This document shows, in pieces, positions 11,217 through 21,629 of a stretch of 64,000 nucleotides of DNA; within the stretch, counting starts at the first letter, position 1; each line of letters begins with the position of its first letter. Source of the DNA: Chitinophaga cymbidii (lineage in GTDB: Bacteria > Bacteroidota > Bacteroidia > Chitinophagales > Chitinophagaceae); contig NZ_BKAU01000001.1 in the NCBI RefSeq assembly GCF_007992715.1, positions 496,001 through 560,000 on the forward strand. Reading direction: 5' to 3'. The notes under the pieces are model-generated. The model ran no database searches. It was not told the origin of the DNA and was given only the letters and a program-made list of their open reading frames with translations. Position numbers and translations under genes: made by a program.

Positions 11217-13658
11217 ATGAAAAACACACCCGGATGGCAGGCGATAGAACAGTGGCTGGCGGCAAAGGAGCTGAAGCCGTTTGCTTTCCAGGAAGAAGCC
11301 TGGGAACATTACCTGTCAGGCCGCTCGGGCCTTGTAAACGCCCCTACGGGTTTTGGCAAGACCTTCTCCATGTTCCTCGGCGTGCTCATCCGCTGGATGA
11401 ACGAACAGCCGGACTATCGCCACAAGACAAATAGCGGGCTGCAGCTGCTGTGGGTAACGCCCCTGCGCGCGCTCGCCAAAGATATCGGCAGGGCTATGGA
11501 AGAAGCCCTGCATGAACTGCACATTCCCTGGAAAGTGGGCATCCGCAGCGGGGACACGGCTACGCATATACGTGAACAGCAGAAAAAGCAAATGCCCGAA
11601 GTGCTCATCATCACCCCCGAATCCATTCACATCCTGCTGGCGCAAAAAGAATATCCGAAACGGTTTGCCGGTTTGCATACAGTGGTGGTGGATGAATGGC
11701 ATGAGCTGCTTGGCAGCAAACGCGGTGTGCTGGTGGAACTCGGACTGAGCCGCCTGAGAGGTCTGCACGGCGAGCGGTTGCAGACCTGGGGGATCTCCGC
11801 CACCATCGGTAACCTGGAAGAAGCGCTGGAAGTGCTGATGGGGCAATCCGTCCATGAGAAGGCCATCGTCCGGGCAGAGGTGAAGAAAGAAATAGCCGTT
11901 CATTGCATCCTGCCGGATGAAATTGAAAAATATCCCTGGGCGGGACATATGGGCCTCAAGCTGCTGCATAAAGTGCTGCCCGTGATACAGAACAGCCGGA
12001 CCACCCTGCTGTTCACCAATACCCGCGGCCAGTCGGAGATCTGGTACCAGCAGATACTCAAACAATGCCCCGAGCTGGCCGGCGCCATTGCATTGCATCA
12101 CGGCTCTATTGACGCCGAGTTGCGGATATGGGTGGAAGAAGCGCTGCACACCGGCACCCTGAAGCTGGTCGTTTGTACCTCCAGCCTCGACCTGGGCGTG
12201 GATTTCCGTCCCGTTGACACCGTGATACAGGTAGGCAGTCCAAAAGGCGTAGCGCGGTTCCTGCAGCGGGCAGGCAGAAGCGGCCACCAGCCGGACGCGG
12301 TGAGCAACATCTGGTTCCTGCCCACACATTCCCTGGAACTGGTGGAAGCCGCCGCGCTGAAAGACGCCATGAAAATCAACTTCATTGAAAGCCGCATGCC
12401 CGTTGTGCTGGCCTTTGACGTGCTGCTGCAATATTTAATGACGCTTGGCGTATCCGACGGCTTCAATGCTGATGAAATATGGAAAGAGGTCACTTCCACT
12501 TTCTGTTACCGCGACCTGCTGCCGGAAGAGTGGCAGTGGATACTCGCTTTCCTCACTACGGGCGGAGAAGCGCTGCACAGCTATGACGAGTTCCGCAAGC
12601 TGCACCTCGTGGGAGATCAGTATCATTGCGTCAGCAAGCAACAGGCGCTGCGCCACCGCCTGCACATCGGCACCATCGTCAGCGATGCGATGCTCAAAGT
12701 GCGGTTCATGACCGGCGGGTTCATCGGGCTGATCGAAGAATATTTCATCTCGCGGCTGTCGCCGGGCGATACATTCAGCCTGAGCGGACAAAACCTCGAA
12801 TACGTGATGATCAAGGATATGACGGTGATCGTGCGCAAGTCAAAATCCAGGAAAAGTATCGTGCCCAGCTGGAACGGCGGCCGCATGCCGCTCTCCGCCA
12901 ACCTCGGTATGATGCTGCGCCGCAAGTTCCACGAAGCGATGTCCGGCGCCGCGCGGGAAGAAGAAGTGCTCATCCTGCAGCCGCTGTTCGAGCTGCAGCA
13001 GGCGCTTTCCCATATTCCGCTGGAAGACGAGCTGCTGATGGAACAGATCGAAACGAAAGACGGATATCATCTTTTTGTATATCCTTTTGAAGGACGGCTG
13101 GTGCACGAAGTGATGGCTACATTGCTGGCCTGGCGCATCAGCCAGCGCCACCCCATCTCCTTCTCCATCGCCATGAACGATTATGGATTCGAGCTGCTGT
13201 CCGACCAGCCCATTCCTGTAGATGACACCAATGCACAGGAACTTTTTTCCTCCGAAAAACTGACGGAAGACCTGCAGGCCAGCGTGAACGCCACGGAAAT
13301 GGCGCGGCGGAAGTTCAGGGACATTGCGGTGATAGCGGGACTGATCTTCCAGGGCTTTCCGGGAAAACACAAGGCCAACCGGCATCTGCAATCTTCCGCT
13401 TCGCTGCTGTTCAATGTTTTTCATGACTACGATCCGCAGAACATCCTGCTGCGGCAGGCATTCAACGAAGCATTCTTTTACCAGATGGAAGAAGCGCGCC
13501 TCCGCGACACCATGGAACGCATTTACCGCAACAAGATCGTGATCACCTTCCCGCAGCGGCTGACGCCGTTCTGCTTCCCGATCAAGGTAGACAGCCTGCG
13601 GGAACAGCTGACCAGCGAAAAGCTGGAAGACCGTATCAAAAAAATGATCGTGTGGTGA
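11217..13658 (+). CDS. Ligase-associated DNA damage response DEXH-box helicase (Lhr-like)
   Basis: The 813-residue superfamily-2 helicase has Walker A APTGFGKT (residues 42-49), motif II DEWH (159-162), motif III WGISATIGN, and a C-terminal RecA domain with QRAGRSGHQ. The long tail corresponds to the Lhr-type winged-helix and DUF4145-like region. In the known ligase-associated repair cluster such a helicase accompanies an ATP-dependent DNA ligase, an exonuclease and the PdeM phosphoesterase. Here only PdeM follows, 85 bp downstream; ligase and exonuclease are absent from this window. Length and all motifs are intact, so the gene should be functional. Confidence 0.93.
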   Translation: MKNTPGWQAIEQWLAAKELKPFAFQEEAWEHYLSGRSGLVNAPTGFGKTFSMFLGVLIRWMNEQPDYRHKTNSGLQLLWVTPLRALAKDIGRAMEEALHELHIPWKVGIRSGDTATHIREQQKKQMPEVLIITPESIHILLAQKEYPKRFAGLHTVVVDEWHELLGSKRGVLVELGLSRLRGLHGERLQTWGISATIGNLEEALEVLMGQSVHEKAIVRAEVKKEIAVHCILPDEIEKYPWAGHMGLKLLHKVLPVIQNSRTTLLFTNTRGQSEIWYQQILKQCPELAGAIALHHGSIDAELRIWVEEALHTGTLKLVVCTSSLDLGVDFRPVDTVIQVGSPKGVARFLQRAGRSGHQPDAVSNIWFLPTHSLELVEAAALKDAMKINFIESRMPVVLAFDVLLQYLMTLGVSDGFNADEIWKEVTSTFCYRDLLPEEWQWILAFLTTGGEALHSYDEFRKLHLVGDQYHCVSKQQALRHRLHIGTIVSDAMLKVRFMTGGFIGLIEEYFISRLSPGDTFSLSGQNLEYVMIKDMTVIVRKSKSRKSIVPSWNGGRMPLSANLGMMLRRKFHEAMSGAAREEEVLILQPLFELQQALSHIPLEDELLMEQIETKDGYHLFVYPFEGRLVHEVMATLLAWRISQRHPISFSIAMNDYGFELLSDQPIPVDDTNAQELFSSEKLTEDLQASVNATEMARRKFRDIAVIAGLIFQGFPGKHKANRHLQSSASLLFNVFHDYDPQNILLRQAFNEAFFYQMEEARLRDTMERIYRNKIVITFPQRLTPFCFPIKVDSLREQLTSEKLEDRIKKMIVW

Positions 13659-13707
13659 TCCCGCGGCTGCCTCCAAAAAATGAATTTCCTGCCCGCTTCA
13701 ATTCCTG

Positions 13708-13715
13708 TAAATTTG
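13708..13715 (+). promoter_or_regulatory. Candidate -7 element for pdeM
   Basis: TAAATTTG matches the Bacteroidota -7 consensus TAnnTTTG and lies 28 bp before the pdeM start. No good -33 TTTG is seen at the usual distance, so this is a weak call. It would allow pdeM to be transcribed apart from the helicase gene. Confidence 0.35.
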
Positions 13716-13743
13716 CAAACATCATTGAAAACAGCATTGAATA

Positions 13744-14394
13744 GTGGAAGACATTTCATTTGAGTGGAGAGAACAGCACTGGCGGCTGTCTGCCGGGCGG
13801 GCGGTGTACTGGGAAGAAGAGCAGACATTGATCGTAGCGGACCTGCATGTGGGCAAGTCCGCGCACTTCCGGAAAGCCGGCATTGCGGTTCCGGCGAATA
13901 TTGTGCAGGAAGATCTGTACCGTTTGCAGCAGCTGATCACAAAATATCATCCCACGCGGATCATTGTGGTGGGCGACATGTTCCATAGTTCCGCGAATAA
14001 TGATGTAGTATATTTCAAACTGTGGCGGCAACAGTTTCCCCATATTCCTTTTTTGCTCATCACCGGCAATCACGATATTCTCGCCCCCGATCTGTACGAC
14101 GAGCTGGACATCCGGTTGCAGGATACGTTAAGCCTGCGGAATATCTTTTTTGTGCATGATGCGGCGGATACGCCCTCAACCCTGGATAACCAGTACGTAT
14201 TTTCAGGACACATTCATCCGGGGGTGCGCCTGGTGGGTTACGGAAAGCAAAGCCTGCGGCTGCCGTGTTTTTATTTTGGTCCGGATACGGCTGTGCTGCC
14301 GGCTTTCAGTCATTTTACAGGCACGTATTCCCTGGAACCGGAGCCATCTTCTGCGGTGTTCGTGATAGCGGAGAAGAAGGTGTTCCGGGTGTAG
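13744..14394 (+). CDS. pdeM: Ligase-associated DNA damage response endonuclease PdeM
   Basis: The 216-residue calcineurin-like metallophosphoesterase carries the metal-binding motifs in order: ADLHVG (Asp33, His35), GDMFHS (Asp78), GNHD (108-111), a central His, and GHIHPG near residue 156. PdeM is the nuclease/phosphoesterase partner of the Lhr-like helicase in ligase-associated repair. Translation must start at the GTG, because an in-frame stop lies immediately upstream (TAG overlapping the GTG region) and no ATG fits. It ends 8 bp before the convergent hepT remnant. Confidence 0.9.
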   Translation: MEDISFEWREQHWRLSAGRAVYWEEEQTLIVADLHVGKSAHFRKAGIAVPANIVQEDLYRLQQLITKYHPTRIIVVGDMFHSSANNDVVYFKLWRQQFPHIPFLLITGNHDILAPDLYDELDIRLQDTLSLRNIFFVHDAADTPSTLDNQYVFSGHIHPGVRLVGYGKQSLRLPCFYFGPDTAVLPAFSHFTGTYSLEPEPSSAVFVIAEKKVFRV

Positions 14395-14402
14395 TGTTTC
14401 TG

Positions 14403-14743
14403 TTAATCGATTAAATTTCTCAGTTTCAGGATGAGATCTGGCAGGAAGGCATTCTTTATTTCCCAAACAATGGCATAGTCTATCCCAAAATAATCATGTA
14501 CGATCCTGTTTCTGAAACCTCTTATCCGGTGCCAGTCTATATCAGGATGTTCCTCTTTAAATTCTTCCGGCAAACGGTTAGCGGCTTCACCAATGATCTC
14601 GAAGTTTCTGATGACCGCATCTATAACCATGCTATCCTTCACAAACTGATCGTACGACAGGTTCTTTGTATAAGACAGGATTTTGTTGCCGCTTTCAAGA
14701 ATGTCCTCCCCTCCACAAGCAGCCGGGGTTGCCGTCTAGACAT
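14403..14743 (-). pseudogene. hepT: HepT-like HEPN toxin, frameshifted by a 5-bp duplication
   Basis: Read from the ATG at 14743-14741, the protein starts MSRRQPRLLVE and then shifts frame and stops early. In the other frame it resumes as DILESGNKILSYTKNLSYDQF and runs to the normal end. The break is at 14705-14714, where the coding strand has GGAGG twice in tandem; removing one copy restores a 111-residue HepT. The catalytic motif RNRIVHDY (RX4HXY, including the tyrosine AMPylated in known systems) is intact in the downstream part. An internal GTG at 14642 could give a 79-residue remnant with the motif. The start overlaps the mntA stop by 8 bp, as in intact modules. A sequencing error is the alternative explanation. 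Confidence 0.8.
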
Positions 14744-15026
14744 AGACTATTTCGGGTTCAATTTCCTTATAATATTTCTGCTTGATGCCGTTTTTGGAAA
14801 CGAGATCAACCGGCCTTTTTATTTTTTTTTCGAGGTAATCCGCCAGGTCGATAAATTCAATACCAATGGGCTGACTAAAGTCTACAATGATATCTACATC
14901 ACTGGAAGGCGAAAAATCATCCCGCACAACGGAGCCAAATAACCCGATCGAACTGATATGATATTTATCGATCAATTCGGGCTTCAGTTGCATAAGCACT
15001 TGCTTTATGGTCCTCAAATCCGTCAT
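14736..15026 (-). CDS. mntA: MntA-like nucleotidyltransferase antitoxin
   Basis: The 96-residue minimal nucleotidyltransferase has the exact GSX10DXD signature (Gly31-Ser32, Asp43 and Asp45, in GLFGSVVRDDFSPSSDVDI) and the later acidic strand. MntA neutralises HepT by transferring AMP groups to its HXY tyrosine. I choose the ATG at 15026 (MTDLRTIKQ) because it matches the usual family N-terminus; an upstream ATG at 15047 would add seven residues. The gene is intact while its partner hepT is frameshifted, the order expected when a toxin-antitoxin pair decays. Confidence 0.87.
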   Translation of the reverse strand: MTDLRTIKQVLMQLKPELIDKYHISSIGLFGSVVRDDFSPSSDVDIIVDFSQPIGIEFIDLADYLEKKIKRPVDLVSKNGIKQKYYKEIEPEIVYV

Positions 15027-15080
15027 ATTACAAATATAATCAAACATTTGAACGTGACAGACTCATTCTACAGATAAAAA

Positions 15081-15177: not shown

Positions 15178-15933
15178 TCAATTTTTCATTTGTTTCTTCA
15201 GCAGGCTTACCTGTTCCTGCAACTGGTTGACCATACCGGCGAGGTGGTTAACGCTCATGCGGTGTTGCTGGCCCATTTTCTGGATCACCGCATCGGCCTG
15301 CCAGATCTCCAGCACTTCGTCCATATTAACAGGATACGGATCGTATTGCGGATTATCCGATACCAGCGTCACCTTGCTTTTGGAGCGGTTGCTTTTCAGT
15401 ACACGTTTGTAAACGATGCCTTCGCGGTTGGTGACCACGATGTAGGCTTCATTGTTCCGGATGTCTTCCCATCCTTCTACTTTATGGCAAACCACTACGG
15501 AGCCGGATGGAGTGGGCAGCATGGAGTCCCCCGCGATCTCGAAGGCCCGGTAGCTGCCTGCGCCCAGCATGGGCAGCGTGAAAGTGTTCAGCTCTTCAAT
15601 AAATTCATCGTCATTGAAGCCCGCCAGGTAACCGGCGGCGGCCTTTACCGGAACAAACACCACATTCTGCCGGTTATTGTTCCCCAGCTTTTGCTGACGG
15701 CGGCGCTCGAGGAAGCTCTCTTTCTGAGAGCTGAGGTCACGGCGCAGCAGATCATCGATCGATACGCGGAACATATCACTGACCTGTTCCAGTACTTCGG
15801 TGCGCGGTTCAGCCCGTTCTTCTTCATACGCTCCGAGTAACGAGCGTTTGATATTCAAACGGTCTGCAAATTCCTGCTGCGTCCAGCCCTTTTGCTTGCG
15901 CAGATATTTCAGATTACGGCAAACAGTAGACAT
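15178..15933 (-). CDS. XRE-type repressor with LexA/CI-like self-cleaving S24 domain
   Basis: The 251-residue protein has an N-terminal XRE helix-turn-helix (about 6-62; LRKQKGWTQQEFADRL) and a C-terminal S24 peptidase domain. It has every feature of autocleavage: an Ala-Gly site in KAAAGY (Ala100-Gly101), the nucleophile Ser137 in GDSML, and Lys176 in VYKRV. Ser-Lys spacing is 39 residues, close to the 37 of LexA. A short predicted coiled coil ends the protein (about 225-250). Two CTAA-N5-TTAG palindromes sit in its own promoter and two more before the polymerase operon at 17.4 kb. I infer a damage-responsive repressor of that operon and of itself, cleaved with RecA help. A phage CI origin is possible, but there are no phage genes nearby. 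Confidence 0.9.
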   Translation of the reverse strand: MSTVCRNLKYLRKQKGWTQQEFADRLNIKRSLLGAYEEERAEPRTEVLEQVSDMFRVSIDDLLRRDLSSQKESFLERRRQQKLGNNNRQNVVFVPVKAAAGYLAGFNDDEFIEELNTFTLPMLGAGSYRAFEIAGDSMLPTPSGSVVVCHKVEGWEDIRNNEAYIVVTNREGIVYKRVLKSNRSKSKVTLVSDNPQYDPYPVNMDEVLEIWQADAVIQKMGQQHRMSVNHLAGMVNQLQEQVSLLKKQMKN

Positions 15934-15950
15934 CCCTAAATTATTTAGTA
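15934..15950. promoter_or_regulatory. Putative repressor operator A (CTAA-N5-TTAG)
   Basis: CTAA at 15936-15939 and TTAG at 15945-15948 form a palindromic core with a 5-bp spacer, directly adjoining the repressor start codon. Its centre is 23 bp from operator B. The same core recurs twice before the Y-family polymerase gene. Binding would block early transcription of the repressor gene. Confidence 0.65.
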
Positions 15951-15956
15951 CGACAA

Positions 15957-15973
15957 TGCTAACAAAATTAGCA
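15957..15973. promoter_or_regulatory. Putative repressor operator B (TGCTAA-N5-TTAGCA)
   Basis: This is the most symmetric copy, with 6-bp perfect arms (15957-15962 and 15968-15973). It covers the -7 box of the repressor promoter, which predicts autorepression. Confidence 0.72.
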
Positions 15974-15995
15974 AATTATTTTCATAATAACCAAA
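15963..15995 (-). promoter_or_regulatory. Repressor gene promoter (TTTG-N21-TAATTTTG)
   Basis: On the minus strand TTTG (15995-15992) and TAATTTTG (15970-15963) match the Bacteroidota -33/-7 consensus, with a 21-bp spacer. Transcription would begin near 15955, about 22 bp before the start codon. Operator B lies on the -7 box and operator A just downstream of the likely start point. Confidence 0.65.
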
Positions 15996-16044
15996 TATAT
16001 CTTCTTCACAACGCTTATTTTTGCTCCGGACAAACTCAATTATT

Positions 16045-16506
16045 ATGCAACATACTCTGGTGATCATCCATTCACTTGTAAGATGGCTGATCCTGCTATT
16101 CGGTATCTGGGCCGTTATTCGTGCATTCATCGGCGTTAGCGGCAAGTCCGCCTACGGCGCTTCGGACGCAAAAGCCGGGCTTTTCTTCATGATCTTCCTG
16201 GACATCCAGATGCTGCTGGGCATCCTTCTCCTGTTCGTGAGCTCGATGGTTAATTTCAGTGACATGGGAGTGACCATGAAAACACCCCATCTCCGCTTTT
16301 TTACGGTAGAGCACACGATCATGGCCATCATCGCCATTGCGCTGGTGCATATCGGCCGTGGTAAGATCAAGAAACTCACTGATGACGCCAAAAAGCACCG
16401 TACCGCACTGATATTTTTCGGCCTTGCGCTGATCGTTATCCTTGCCCTCATTCCCTGGCCGTTCCGGGAAGCACTAGGTCACAGAAGCTGGTTCCCACAG
16501 TTCTAA
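16045..16506 (+). CDS. Small four-helix membrane protein, cytochrome b-like
   Basis: The 153-residue protein starts at the ATG at 16045 (MQHTLVIIHSLVRWLILLFG); an upstream in-frame ATG at 16021 would only add residues before the first span. Four hydrophobic helices are visible, with histidines in helix 1 (HTLVIIHSL) and helix 3 (VEHTIMAIIAIALVHIG), which could bind heme or simply resemble such families. A TATTTTTG -7-like box lies at 16016-16023. The gene is divergent from the repressor gene and shares its operator region, so it may respond to the same signal. The function is unknown. Confidence 0.72.
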   Translation: MQHTLVIIHSLVRWLILLFGIWAVIRAFIGVSGKSAYGASDAKAGLFFMIFLDIQMLLGILLLFVSSMVNFSDMGVTMKTPHLRFFTVEHTIMAIIAIALVHIGRGKIKKLTDDAKKHRTALIFFGLALIVILALIPWPFREALGHRSWFPQF

Positions 16507-16521
16507 GCCATCCGGTATTCA

Positions 16522-16567
16522 TAAAAAAAGTAAGAACAGGAATAGCTCCCGTTCTTACTTTTTTTTA
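16522..16567. terminator. Bidirectional terminator between convergent membrane-protein genes
   Basis: GTAAGAAC (16530-16537) pairs with GTTCTTAC (16551-16558), with GGA/TCC inside after one mismatch, and is flanked by A7 on the left and T9 on the right. It can therefore terminate both the four-helix protein gene and the convergent SdpI-family gene. Confidence 0.9.
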
Positions 16568-16584
16568 TGCTTGCCAAAGAAAAA

Positions 16585-17259
16585 TTAACCCTGCGTTTTG
16601 TAGTATTGCCGGTAAGAATAAATATAAGGCAGGGCCGCCAGCGCGCCCGCCGCAAAAATAAACAGGAACACGCCGCTGACCACCGTGAGGAATATTCCCC
16701 CCACGATGATGCCGATCCCCACAAATATCCATAGCAGGCTGGCCATCCGGTGCGTTTCCTTCCAGATGCCGTCGTCTTTCAGCGTCCAGGGCGTACGCAC
16801 GCCCACAAAATTGTTAGGCTCCAGTCGGCGCAGGTAAAAACCGATCAGCACGATCAGTATGCCCACTCCCGCAAACACCCATTTTTCCAGGAACAATTCC
16901 CGGCCGATGCTGACCAGGTAAATGATCATCGACGTAAAAACAGCGAGATAAATATGTATCCTGAAACGGATGGCGTAATAGGCGCGAACGTGCGCGATAA
17001 CGTCCGCTTCCGTGGTATCATCTTCACCGGGGCGGGGAATATAGCGGAAAAGAAAATACAGCAAACCGTTCGTGAAAAAGAGGAAGATCATCAGCAGGAG
17101 AAATTCGCTTTTGTCCCCCGCCCTGTCCGGCACACCATTCAGGTTGAAATTGGTGGGAATGATCTCCGGCAGGCTGTTCCAGATCGCCCCGAGATACACC
17201 ATCGGCAGTATCAAAAGTGCCAGCAACAGCACTTCTTTAAAAAGGTCTGTTTGTTTCAT
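16585..17259 (-). CDS. SdpI-family integral membrane protein with DUF1648 segment
   Basis: The 224-residue protein starts at the ATG at 17259 (MKQTDLFKEVLLLALLILP), the point where typical family sequence begins. About six hydrophobic spans are present. The early segment PEIIPTNFNLNGVPDRAGDKSEF fits DUF1648, and LRRLEPNNFVGVRTPWTL is the SdpI hallmark. In Bacillus, SdpI gives immunity to the SDP toxin and senses it; most other homologues have no known role. It is divergent from the polymerase operon, sharing the 131-bp region with two putative operators. Confidence 0.86.
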   Translation of the reverse strand: MKQTDLFKEVLLLALLILPMVYLGAIWNSLPEIIPTNFNLNGVPDRAGDKSEFLLLMIFLFFTNGLLYFLFRYIPRPGEDDTTEADVIAHVRAYYAIRFRIHIYLAVFTSMIIYLVSIGRELFLEKWVFAGVGILIVLIGFYLRRLEPNNFVGVRTPWTLKDDGIWKETHRMASLLWIFVGIGIIVGGIFLTVVSGVFLFIFAAGALAALPYIYSYRQYYKTQG

Positions 17260-17331
17260 GGCTGCTTTGAAATTAGTTCTATTATAATCTACAGTTATCA
17301 GGCCAATATGTTTTAAAAGTGGGAAAATAAT

Positions 17332-17348
17332 TACTAACATTTTTAGTT
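17332..17348. promoter_or_regulatory. Putative repressor operator C (CTAA-N5-TTAG)
   Basis: CTAA 17334-17337 and TTAG 17343-17346 are separated by 5 bp. The right half lies where a -33 element is expected for the polymerase operon. Its centre is 19 bp from operator D, so both faces could be occupied together. Confidence 0.62.
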
Positions 17349-17350
17349 TA

Positions 17351-17367
17351 TGCTAATATTTTTAGTA
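17351..17367. promoter_or_regulatory. Putative repressor operator D (TGCTAA-N5-TTAGTA)
   Basis: The left arm is identical to operator B, and the CTAA/TTAG core is at 17353-17356 and 17362-17365. It fills the space before a -7-like box TAATTTAG (17366-17373), 24 bp ahead of the polymerase start codon. Occupancy would block the promoter. Confidence 0.7.
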
Positions 17368-17390
17368 ATTTAGCTATAAAGACATGAGTT

Positions 17391-18623
17391 ATGTTGCTGG
17401 ATGATCAGCGCACGATCGCGCATTTTGATATGGACAGCTTCTTTGTTTCGGTGGAGTGCAAGAAAGATAACAGCCTGAAGGGCAAACCACTGCTCGTAGG
17501 CGGGCGGAGCGACCGGGCGGTGGTGGCGGCCTGCAGCTATGAAGCGCGGAAATTTGGCATTCATTCCGCTATGCCCATGAAAGTGGCGTTGCGGCTTTGT
17601 CCACATGCGATCATCCGCGGCGGGGATATGGAAGAATACAGCAAGCACTCCCGCGAAGTAACGGAGATCATTGCCGGCTCCGCGCCTTTATATGAGAAAT
17701 CTTCGATCGATGAGTTTTATCTCGATCTGACGGGGATGGATAAATATTTCGGATCGTTGAAATGGACGAGCGAGCTGCGGCAGAAGATCATGAAGCAGAC
17801 CAGCCTGCCGGTGTCGCTCGGCATGGCGTCCAACAAGATGGTTTCAAAGGTGGCCACTAACGAAGCGAAGCCAAACGGGCAATTATCGATTCCCTTCGGG
17901 CAGGAAAAGATCTTTCTTGCGCCGATGGCGATCGAAAAAATACCGATGGTCGGTAAGGAAACAGCCGCGCAGCTGAAACGCAGGGGTGTGGAAACGGTAC
18001 GGACGCTGAGCGAGATACCGATCGGTCTGCTCGAAGCCTGGATGGGGAGGAACGGCATTGCGCTCTGGAAGAAAGCGAACGGCATCGATGAATCACCGGT
18101 GGTCCCCTACCACGAGCAGAAATCGATCTCCACGGAGAATACTTTCGGTTCGGACACGATCGATATGGAATTTCTGCATTGCGAGCTGGTGCGGATGACG
18201 GAAAAAATTGGGTTCGAGCTGCGCTCCCAGAACAAGCTGACGGGATGCGTGACCGTGAAGATCCGGTATTCGGATTTTGAAACGGTGACCCGGCAGATGA
18301 GCATTCCTTACACCGCCAGCGATCATATCCTGCTGGAAAAAGTAAAGGAGCTGTTCAACCGGCTGTACGACAGAAGGTTGCTGGTACGGTTGATCGGCGT
18401 GCGTTTCAGCCACCTGGTGTCCGGCAACTACCAGATCAGCCTGTTCGACGACACACAGGAAATGATCTCGCTGTACCAGGCGATCGACAGCATCAAAAGC
18501 CAGTATGGCTGGCAATACCTGATGCGGGGCAGCAGCAAGGCCGCGAAATTTGAGGAGAAGCTGATGCCTTACCAGAAAGATAAAAACGAGCTGATCATGA
18601 AAAAGCGTTACCCCGGTGTTTAA
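17391..18623 (+). CDS. dinB: Y-family translesion DNA polymerase (DinB/ImuB-like)
   Basis: The 410-residue polymerase has the catalytic motifs AHFDMDSFFVSVE (Asp13) and SSIDEFYLDL (Asp107-Glu108), the helix-hairpin-helix thumb region (IPMVGKETAAQLKRRGVETV), and a little-finger domain. QISLF near residue 350 matches a beta-clamp-binding motif. Catalytic residues are intact, so it should be an active lesion-bypass enzyme, unlike ImuB proteins, which lack them. It sits 18 bp before a DnaE2-like polymerase gene, and two operators matching those of the S24 repressor lie in its promoter. Start: ATG at 17391; the ATG at 17384 is out of frame. Confidence 0.93.
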   Translation: MLLDDQRTIAHFDMDSFFVSVECKKDNSLKGKPLLVGGRSDRAVVAACSYEARKFGIHSAMPMKVALRLCPHAIIRGGDMEEYSKHSREVTEIIAGSAPLYEKSSIDEFYLDLTGMDKYFGSLKWTSELRQKIMKQTSLPVSLGMASNKMVSKVATNEAKPNGQLSIPFGQEKIFLAPMAIEKIPMVGKETAAQLKRRGVETVRTLSEIPIGLLEAWMGRNGIALWKKANGIDESPVVPYHEQKSISTENTFGSDTIDMEFLHCELVRMTEKIGFELRSQNKLTGCVTVKIRYSDFETVTRQMSIPYTASDHILLEKVKELFNRLYDRRLLVRLIGVRFSHLVSGNYQISLFDDTQEMISLYQAIDSIKSQYGWQYLMRGSSKAAKFEEKLMPYQKDKNELIMKKRYPGV

Positions 18624-18641
18624 CCCGTTCAATGAATCGAG

Positions 18642-21629
18642 ATGTACCTGAATTGTAAAACATGGTTCAGCCTGCGGTACGGCACGATCAGCACCAGGCG
18701 GCTGGCCGCGCTCGCAAGGGAATACGGCATTACGTCCCTCGCGTTGACCAATATCAACGCTACAACGGACGCATGGATGTTCGTCAGGGAATGCCGTGAG
18801 CAGGGGATCAAGCCGGTACTGGGACTGGAATGCCGCAACGGTCATACTTTCCGCTATATCCTGCTGGCGCGGAACATGGAAGGCTGGCTGCAGATCAACC
18901 GCTTTTTATCGGCGCACCTGATGAGTGACACGCCATTCCCGGAGCAGGCGCCTTTTCTTCCGCATACGTTCGCCGTGTACGCCTGGGGAGCGCGCCCGGT
19001 GGAAACGCTGGCCCCGCACGAGCTGGCCGGCGTGAGGCCGCGGGAAGTGAACAAGCTCTTCCGCACGGATACGAAGCGGTACGCTAACAAGCTGGTGATC
19101 CTGCAGCCGCTCAGCTTCCTCGATGCCGGCCAGCATCAGCTGCACCGCGTGCTGCGCGCGGTGGACAATAACCTGCTGATCAGCCAGCTTCCGCCGGAAG
19201 AAACAGCAGGCCCCGATGAATGTTTTATTTCGCCCGCCCGCCTGCTGGAACATTTTTCGGAGCATCCCCATATTGTGCGGAACACGCTGCTGGTGATGGA
19301 AGCCTGTGAGATCGATTTCCGGTTCGGGCAGAACCTCAATAAAAAATGTTTCACCGGCAGCCGGGCGGAAGACCGCGAACGGCTGCGGGAACTGGCTTTG
19401 GAAGGAATGGCCCTGCGCTATGGGACCGATAACCGGGAAGCACGGGAAAGAGTGGAGAAGGAACTGTTTATTATCGATCAGGCGGACTTTTCCGCCTACT
19501 TCCTGATCACCTGGGATATTACCCGGTACGCCCGGCACCGGGGGTTTTTCTATGTAGGCCGGGGCAGCGGCGCCAATTCCATTGTCGCCTATTGCCTGCA
19601 GATCACCAATGTAGATCCCATTGCGCTGGACCTCTATTTCGAGCGCTTCCTGAACCCGCACCGCACCGCGCCGCCGGATTTCGATATCGACTTCTCCTGG
19701 GCCGACCGCGATGATATCATACAATATATTTTTTCCCGGTATACGGAAGAACATACCGCATTAATGGGGACCGTAGCCACTTTCCAGACCAATGCCATCG
19801 TGCGGGAACTGGGCAAAGTATACGGCCTTCCCAAACAGGAAATCGACAAAATCCTCGAAAACCCCTACCAGGTGAAGCTTGGGGAAGACAGCGTACACCA
19901 GCGCATTATCACATACGGTAAAATGCTGGCGAACAAAAACGAGGCCTTCCCCAATCACCTGAGCATCCACGCCGGCGGCATCCTCATCAGCGAAGCGCCC
20001 ATCCATCAATACTGCGCCACGCACATGCCGCCCAAAGGATTCAGCACTGCGCAAATGGACATGCACATGGCCGAAGCTACCGGCCTGCACAAATTCGATA
20101 TCCTCAGCCAGCGCGGCCTCGGGCATATCCGCGATTCGCTGGACATGATCCGGAAGAACAAGGGCGTGGAAATCGACATACACAACGTGGAGCCATTCAT
20201 GCAGGATGAAAATGTGCAGCATGCATTGCGCACTGTGAACACCATCGGCTGCTTTTATATTGAATCGCCCGCCATGCGGCAGCTGTTGAAGAAGCTGGAA
20301 TGCGATGACTATATCACCCTGGTAGCCGCCAGTTCCATCATTCGTCCCGGTGTAGCGCAGGCCGGCATGATGCGGCAGTATGTGCAGAACTTCCATGCGC
20401 CGGATAAGGTGAATTACCTCCACCCCGTCATGAAAAAGCTGCTGGCGGAAACATACGGCGTGATGGTATACCAGGAAGATGTGATCAAGGTAGCGCATCA
20501 TTATGCGGACCTCGACCTGGCAGATGCGGACATTCTGCGCAGAGCCATGGCCGGCAAGTACCGCGGGGAAGATCATTTTTCAAAGATCAGGGAGCTGTTT
20601 TTCGGGAACTGCGCCAGGCTCGGGCGACCGGAAGCCGTCAGCCAGGAAGTATGGCGGCAGATCGCGAGCTTCGCGAACTTTTCTTTTTCCAAAGCGCACT
20701 CCGCCAGTTTCGCCGTGGAAAGCTACCAGAGCCTCTACCTGAAAACCTATTTCCCCGCCGAGTTCATGGTGGCCGTGATCAACAACTTCGGCGGGTTCTA
20801 CAACCGGGAGCTGTATTTCCGCGAACTGGCAAAAACCGGCGTACAGATCTTTCCGCCCTGCATCAACAACAGCGATTACCTTACCAGCATCAGCGGCAAC
20901 GATGTATTTACGGGATTCATTCATGTGGACCGGCTGGAAGAAGCCTGGATCAAAAAAGTGCTGAAGAACCGGGAAACCGAAGGCGCTTTCATCAGCCTTG
21001 AAAATTTTGTGGAACGTGAGAATCCCGCGCCGGAACAGCTGGAAATACTGATCCGCATCGGCGCATTTAACTTTACCGGCCACACGAAAAAAGAACTGCT
21101 GTGGAACAGTTCCGCCCTCCTGAAAAATCTTCCGCCGGACGAATGGAAGCCGCGCCTGTTCCGCGAGCCTTCGCGTGACTGGACGCTGCCGGACCTTGCC
21201 TATCACCGGCATGAAGATGCTTTTGACGAGATCGAGCTGCTGGGGTTTCCGCTTTGCTCGCCCTTCGAAGTGCTGGAACATGACCAGCGCCATTATCTGC
21301 CGGGCGCGGAGTTTGCGCAGCATCTCGGCCAATCTGTATGCACGCTCGGTTACCTCGTGTGCCTCAAACATGTTTATACCAGCAAGAACGAACCGATGTG
21401 CTTCGGAACGTTCCTTGACCGGGACAGCACGTTCATGGACACGGTGCATTTCCCCGACAGCCTGAAAAATTATCCTTTCCAGAAAAGTGGTTTTTATATC
21501 CTGGAAGGCAAGGTGATCGAGGAATTCGGCGTGTATTCGCTGGATGTGCACCGGATGCGGAAGATCGGGTACTTCGAGGACAGGCCCATGGAAACGGGGA
21601 AGCTGCGCGGCAGTTTGAGCCGGTTATAA
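18642..21629 (+). CDS. DnaE2-like error-prone DNA polymerase III alpha subunit
   Basis: The 995-residue C-family polymerase has the palm motif PPDFDIDFSW (catalytic aspartates Asp348 and Asp350), GRGSGANSIVAY, the FSFSKAHSASFA segment and a C-terminal OB-like region. It is about 160 residues shorter than replicative DnaE. The N-terminal PHP domain is degenerate: NCKTWFS stands where a His-x-Ser metal motif is usual, and LALTNIN where TDH-type ligands are expected, so PHP metal binding looks lost. Paired with the Y-family polymerase it forms a mutagenesis cassette comparable to imuB-dnaE2. Both are probably derepressed together after DNA damage. Confidence 0.9.
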   Translation: MYLNCKTWFSLRYGTISTRRLAALAREYGITSLALTNINATTDAWMFVRECREQGIKPVLGLECRNGHTFRYILLARNMEGWLQINRFLSAHLMSDTPFPEQAPFLPHTFAVYAWGARPVETLAPHELAGVRPREVNKLFRTDTKRYANKLVILQPLSFLDAGQHQLHRVLRAVDNNLLISQLPPEETAGPDECFISPARLLEHFSEHPHIVRNTLLVMEACEIDFRFGQNLNKKCFTGSRAEDRERLRELALEGMALRYGTDNREARERVEKELFIIDQADFSAYFLITWDITRYARHRGFFYVGRGSGANSIVAYCLQITNVDPIALDLYFERFLNPHRTAPPDFDIDFSWADRDDIIQYIFSRYTEEHTALMGTVATFQTNAIVRELGKVYGLPKQEIDKILENPYQVKLGEDSVHQRIITYGKMLANKNEAFPNHLSIHAGGILISEAPIHQYCATHMPPKGFSTAQMDMHMAEATGLHKFDILSQRGLGHIRDSLDMIRKNKGVEIDIHNVEPFMQDENVQHALRTVNTIGCFYIESPAMRQLLKKLECDDYITLVAASSIIRPGVAQAGMMRQYVQNFHAPDKVNYLHPVMKKLLAETYGVMVYQEDVIKVAHHYADLDLADADILRRAMAGKYRGEDHFSKIRELFFGNCARLGRPEAVSQEVWRQIASFANFSFSKAHSASFAVESYQSLYLKTYFPAEFMVAVINNFGGFYNRELYFRELAKTGVQIFPPCINNSDYLTSISGNDVFTGFIHVDRLEEAWIKKVLKNRETEGAFISLENFVERENPAPEQLEILIRIGAFNFTGHTKKELLWNSSALLKNLPPDEWKPRLFREPSRDWTLPDLAYHRHEDAFDEIELLGFPLCSPFEVLEHDQRHYLPGAEFAQHLGQSVCTLGYLVCLKHVYTSKNEPMCFGTFLDRDSTFMDTVHFPDSLKNYPFQKSGFYILEGKVIEEFGVYSLDVHRMRKIGYFEDRPMETGKLRGSLSRL

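Follow-up and report, generated by a model that had tools for sequence, protein, structure and literature searches.

A candidate non-canonical LexA in Chitinophaga cymbidii, its paired CTAA-N5-TTAG operators and a two-polymerase operon

Non-canonical LexA is the name given to a group of CI-like S24 repressors of Bacteroidetes (Sanchez-Osuna et al. 2021, PMC8565304). The same study derived the operator motif CTAA-N5-TTAG, established binding of the Pontibacter protein by gel shifts with dyad and spacer mutants, followed mitomycin C induction in relatives by reverse transcription quantitative PCR, and described large CTAA-N5-TTAG regulons in Hymenobacteraceae, Sphingobacteriaceae and Chitinophagaceae; it is the sole match in a literature search for the motif string. 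Error-prone polymerases of this phylum have been described separately. Bacteroidetes can pair an active Y-family polymerase with DnaE2 (Timinskas and Venclovas 2019, PMC6511836), a 2026 survey reports DnaE2B genomes without imuA and imuB (PMC12926913), and an earlier table lists genomes, some of them from Bacteroidetes, that have two or three DnaE2 proteins besides DnaE1 (PMC3919608). The locus considered here lies in a 64-kb stretch of the Chitinophaga cymbidii genome, C1:496001-560000 (the window), in which the gene for a 251-residue S24 repressor stands near an operon encoding a Y-family polymerase (DinB) and a C-family polymerase (DnaE).

We put the probability at about 0.94 that this repressor is the Chitinophaga version of non-canonical LexA, belonging to the CTAA-N5-TTAG clade and standing over a full SOS regulon that includes dinB-dnaE. 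The system is genuine and well conserved, and it was already described in relatives in 2021 (PMC8565304). The novelty implied by the original prediction, which was made from the sequence of this stretch, is therefore lost: the repressor family, the motif, the gel shifts, the mitomycin C data and the presence in Chitinophagaceae are all in that paper. What the present analysis provides is a second, independent discovery, starting from raw sequence, of an SOS system already in print, together with promoter evidence extended across Chitinophaga with permuted-motif controls. The features are as follows, in window coordinates.

15178..15933, minus strand: probable non-canonical LexA, HTH_3 (CI/XRE type) plus S24 peptidase, 251 aa (domain search, alignment, structure model)
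15936..15948, minus strand: proximal operator of the repressor promoter, CTAAATAATTTAG as read with the gene, an exact motif match
15959..15971, minus strand: distal operator of the repressor promoter, CTAATTTTGTTAG, containing the -7-like TAATTTTG
17334..17346, plus strand: distal operator of the dinB-dnaE promoter, CTAACATTTTTAG, an exact motif match
17353..17365, plus strand: proximal operator of the dinB-dnaE promoter, CTAATATTTTTAG, with the -7-like TAATTTAG directly 3'
17391..18623, plus strand: Y-family polymerase (DinB/PolY), 410 aa, IMS and IMS_C domains and a possibly RecA-N-terminus-like tail
18642..21629, plus strand: short C-family polymerase (DnaE), 995 aa, DnaE2B-like by operon and size (domain search, PRK05672 score, alignment)

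Repressor, operators and their conservation

The repressor joins an HTH_3 domain (residues 8-62; PF01381, 51.4 bits against a cut-off of 23) to a Peptidase_S24 domain (residues 98-210). The residues of LexA/CI autocleavage that the original prediction recognized are present as Ala100-Gly101, Ser137 and Lys176, and none of them varies among 16 aligned sequences, namely the repressor and 15 homologues of 63-94% identity. The four homologues of 94-98% identity that are named by organism all come from Chitinophaga. An AlphaFold2 model of moderate confidence (mean predicted local distance difference test score 69.7, predicted template modeling score 0.45) consists of an all-helical N-terminal domain, a low-confidence linker, the S24 beta domain and, at residues 228-250, a predicted extra C-terminal helix. 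Local Foldseek matches of the model include the C-terminal domains of LexA and lambda CI and the N-terminal domains of ImmR and SinR; longer matches have a root-mean-square deviation above 12, and phosphonate enzymes are also among the matches. The winged helix-turn-helix model of LexA (PF01726, LexA_DNA_bind) has no match at E 0.001 in the C. cymbidii genome, and a canonical LexA was rejected on this ground.

The window has four copies of the motif CTAANNNNNTTAG (CTAA-N5-TTAG), whereas shuffled sequences contain it 0.41 times on average (maximum 3) and reach four copies in 0 of 100 cases. Allowing one mismatch adds just two scattered sites, a number equaled or exceeded in 98 of 100 shuffles. 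Bacteroidota promoters typically combine a -33 element, TTTG, with a -7 element, TAnnTTTG. Among 24 Chitinophaga-type repressor promoters (the window included), TAnnTTTG lies inside the distal operator in all 24, preceded at 17-26 bases by TTTG in 22. An exact TAnnTTTG directly follows the proximal operator in 12 of 22 dinB promoters, and the other 10 differ by one or two bases; in the window the element is TAATTTAG, with one mismatch. Since the operators overlap or adjoin -33/-7-like elements, repressor binding would cover regions contacted by RNA polymerase. The anatomy first proposed for these promoters is confirmed: four exact sites at the coordinates given, the full left arm TGCTAA in two of the four, an operator over the repressor's likely -7 box, and one just before the -7-like element of the polymerase operon.

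Conservation in relatives adds support. The motif was sought up to 300 bp upstream of the start codon, at least 100 bp having to be available. Of 80 repressor promoters, 78 have at least one site and 59 have at least two; the motif is also kept in 21 of 22 dinB promoters, paired in all 21, so that absence from orthologous promoters, which would have told against the proposal, is not borne out. In same-genus genomes it also precedes recA in 30 of 30 promoters (two sites in none), splB-like genes in 30 of 30 (two sites in 27), parE-like genes in 30 of 30 (two sites in one) and imuA in 21 of 24 (two sites in 12). Paired operators are spaced 20-24 bp apart at the repressor, 18-19 bp at dinB, and 21-23 bp at imuA and splB-like genes. 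As controls, 11 palindromes built from permuted half-sites are found in 0-6 promoters per set, and the reversed pattern occurs in 2 of 80 repressor promoters and 1 of 22 dinB promoters (both within 250 bp) and in 0 of 29 imuA loci (four of them repeats).

The polymerase operon and a second cassette

Alignment indicates that the window DinB and DnaE both retain the acidic residues that we take to be catalytic. In DnaE the Asp residues are kept and the PHP histidines appear degenerate by eye; DinB has acidic residues that are missing from the ImuB encoded on contig C5. That ImuB, identified by its Pfam IMS domain and the missing catalytic residues, belongs to an imuA-imuB-dnaE2 cassette elsewhere in the genome, which has three DnaE and three Y-family genes in all; the ImuA of the cassette scores 69.2 bits, under the NCBIfam cut-off of 150. 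The window operon has no imuA-like gene. Comparison with the imuB-dnaE2 cassettes that LexA represses in other phyla, as originally drawn, consequently needs refining, the Y-family member of the window operon being of the active-looking kind.

As judged from these features, the window pair fits the published Bacteroidetes pair of PolY and DnaE2 (PMC6511836). By operon and size the window DnaE is DnaE2B-like. Its PRK05672 score of 464 bits, compared with 1399.6 for the DnaE2 of the C5 cassette (cut-off 939), and the identity of ~30% between the two give indirect support to this tentative assignment. The DinB tail resembles the RecA N terminus over 31 ungapped residues, a similarity that is suggestive only, given that 29 of 2000 shuffles score equally high. 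That the window DnaE is instead an ordinary DnaE2 of the ImuA-ImuB type, deprived of its imuA by a local loss, is very improbable. In favor of this reading, the protein is short, its PHP histidines look degenerate and its operon includes a Y-family gene; against it, an imuA-imuB-dnaE2 cassette is present elsewhere, the two DnaEs are only distantly similar, and DinB keeps catalytic residues that ImuB lacks.

All 36 same-genus genomes encode a window-type DnaE; its identity is 63-100% in 33 of them and only 48-56% in G009, G014 and G031. The less similar proteins may be a second subtype, because G005, G020 and G030 carry both identity levels. Stop codons were flagged in 12 of the 36 best matches; in the 30 loci examined, none interrupts the aligned portion, and broken dnaE genes were not accepted as an explanation. 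Partial matches to both DinB and DnaE at L050, and to DnaE at L063, possibly reflect assembly frameshifts. ImuB accompanies the window-type DnaE in 25 of the 36 genomes, of which only G031 has just the weaker DnaE. Beyond the genus, the ImuB search of 23 genomes from the same order gave one weak match (E 4e-4).

These distributions tilt us, by a small margin over even odds, toward Chitinophaga having both an ImuA-ImuB-DnaE2A and a DinB-DnaE2B(-RecA) mutasome under one non-canonical LexA with paired operators. Such a reading runs against a published statement, since DnaE2B is said to occur in genomes without imuA and imuB (PMC12926913); C. cymbidii does not seem to be such a genome, as the C5 cassette indicates despite its low-scoring ImuA. 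Among the papers found by the literature search, most of them seen by title only, none was recognized that treats the two mutasomes together in Bacteroidetes. The presence of both DnaE2-type mutasomes under a single repressor would be an apparent, modest addition to what is described. Their apparent occurrence together in 25 of 36 sampled same-genus genomes is likely to be of most interest to specialists and, if confirmed, would make Chitinophaga a natural system for asking why cells need both.

Extent of the regulon

The assembled genome (6.63 Mb, 18 contigs, completeness 100, contamination 0.47) contains 25 CTAA-N5-TTAG sites. The reversed control pattern is commoner, with 45, and so the genome total is not enriched; as the count is uninformative, conservation in orthologous promoters replaces it as evidence. 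The search proposed at the outset, for motifs near start codons, nevertheless places 12 of the 25 sites before SOS-type genes, as judged by position and gene content.

Two sites each: repressor, dinB-dnaE, imuA-imuB-dnaE2, PA0069-family radical SAM gene
One site each: recA, parE-like gene, umuD, radC

NCBIfam cut-offs are passed by recA, radC, umuD (PRK10276, 112.6 bits against 110) and the PA0069-family radical SAM gene, which we take to be the splB of the published regulon. Pfam identifies the product of the parE-like gene as the B subunit of a type II topoisomerase; the gene scores below every NCBIfam cut-off and is followed by a topoisomerase A-like gene. For umuD and radC, inner ATGs were taken as start codons; the longest frames would put the sites at the very start. 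Both of these sites were seen in the C. cymbidii genome only, and radC is probably under the repressor. At umuD (G000:C1:990190-990660; L038:6190-6660) the site lies at the start of the gene. The gene looks like an orphan, because no umuC follows downstream and the genome's three Y-family genes, none recognized as UmuC, all lie elsewhere. Another site (G000:C3:1317-1329; L023) lies ~110 bp upstream of the assumed start of a 2'-5' RNA ligase-like gene, which is a possible further regulon member or a chance neighbor.

These sites bear on the proposal of a dedicated mutagenesis regulon confined to two promoters. That an SOS-like circuit of a Bacteroidota bacterium is run by an XRE/CI-type S24 repressor is upheld; its dedication to mutagenesis was rejected, given the genome sites and the conservation before recA, parE-like, splB-like and imuA genes. 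Confinement of the motif to the two promoters is true of the window and fails genome-wide. A repressor controlling only itself and dinB-dnaE, in the manner of the minimal HdiR and UmuDAb regulons, would agree with the confinement in the window and with the proximity of the two genes: of 23 Chitinophaga-type loci (L041-L063, of which L044 is labeled Flavihumibacter), 22 have dinB no more than 8 kb from the repressor, within the flanks fetched, as against 0 of 57 loci from more distant relatives, many with short flanks. We nonetheless regard a two-promoter regulon as very unlikely, because the motif precedes recA, splB-like, parE-like and imuA genes in 111 of 114 promoters and 21 further sites are found in the genome.

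The genome encodes three S24 proteins, the repressor, UmuD and a second HTH-S24 protein, and the repressor alone combines a helix-turn-helix with Ala-Gly, Ser and Lys. The second HTH-S24 protein (230 aa, G000:C1:914150 region; L028:9100-9789) lacks the Ala-Gly site and has no CTAA-N5-TTAG in the 15-kb segment examined, which makes it an unlikely reader of the motif. Scarcely credible, too, is a prophage or mobile-element CI remnant that acts locally while another regulator reads the motif: the N-terminal domain does resemble phage, integrative and conjugative element, and SinR-type repressors, but sites are kept in the repressor's own promoter in nearly all relatives, mostly labeled Chitinophagaceae or its genera, the sole other HTH-S24 protein found is an unlikely reader as above, and the published family binds this very motif (PMC8565304).

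Several points weigh against assigning the protein to non-canonical LexA with a full regulon. Exact sites are missing from two repressor promoters (L081 and L087), one dinB promoter (L052) and three imuA promoters (L169, L171 and L173). The promoter sets are the best-matching relatives and, coming from related species, are neither random nor independent. The 13 remaining genome sites may be due to chance, because the 25 sites are fewer than the 45 of the reversed control. Kinship to the tested Pontibacter protein, WP_025606010.1, is suggested by architecture, motif and taxon rather than by a tree, and no results on binding, cleavage or transcription came to light for C. cymbidii.

If the protein is a non-canonical LexA, it would bind as a dimer to the CTAA-N5-TTAG palindromes, two of which stand side by side, 18-24 bp apart, at several promoters. 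Over the -33/-7 region of its own and the dinB-dnaE promoters, it would block RNA polymerase. After DNA damage, RecA filaments would be expected to trigger self-cleavage at Ala100-Gly101 via Ser137 and Lys176, releasing the repressor gene, recA, umuD, dinB-dnaE, imuA-imuB-dnaE2, the genes resembling splB and parE, and probably radC. From the window operon may then come a DinB-DnaE2B(-RecA) translesion mutasome. Binding and induction have been demonstrated by others, in relatives.

Other genes surround the repressor in the window. Close to it are genes for a ligase-associated DNA damage response DEXH helicase and the endonuclease PdeM (11217-14394), before which the window search found no exact CTAA-N5-TTAG. 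Adjoining it are an MntA/HepT-like nucleotidyltransferase gene and a short HepT-like gene (79 aa) at 14403-15047, a pair that scores above Pfam cut-offs and below NCBIfam cut-offs.

Comparison with known systems

Canonical LexA of the E. coli type shares with the repressor an S24 domain with autocleavage residues and an SOS role, and differs in its DNA-binding domain, which here is HTH_3. HdiR, UmuDAb and Francisella FddR are likewise S24 repressors other than LexA over DNA damage genes; the regulons of HdiR and UmuDAb are described as minimal (PMC8565304), and FddR is placed in another clade (PMC13148647).

The window operon differs from ImuA-ImuB-DnaE2 cassettes in having no imuA and a Y-family partner with catalytic residues. 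It resembles the PolY2-DnaE2 or DnaE2B-PolY-RecA mutasome (PMC6511836, PMC12926913) in uniting an active-looking PolY and an active-looking DnaE in one operon without imuA, and perhaps in the RecA-N-terminus-like PolY tail. Unlike the DnaE2B genomes of PMC12926913, most of the same-genus genomes with a window-type DnaE also have ImuB.

The closest match is non-canonical LexA itself. No substantial difference from its description (PMC8565304) was found; umuD here has no adjoining umuC. Shared features include the CI-type helix-turn-helix with S24 domain, the Ala-Gly site, the Ser/Lys pair, the extra C-terminal helix, the CTAA-N5-TTAG motif, sometimes paired, a site in the repressor's own promoter and occurrence in Chitinophagaceae. 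The predicted regulon is similarly alike, comprising recA, dinB, imuA-imuB-dnaE2, splB, umuD, topoisomerase IV and radC.

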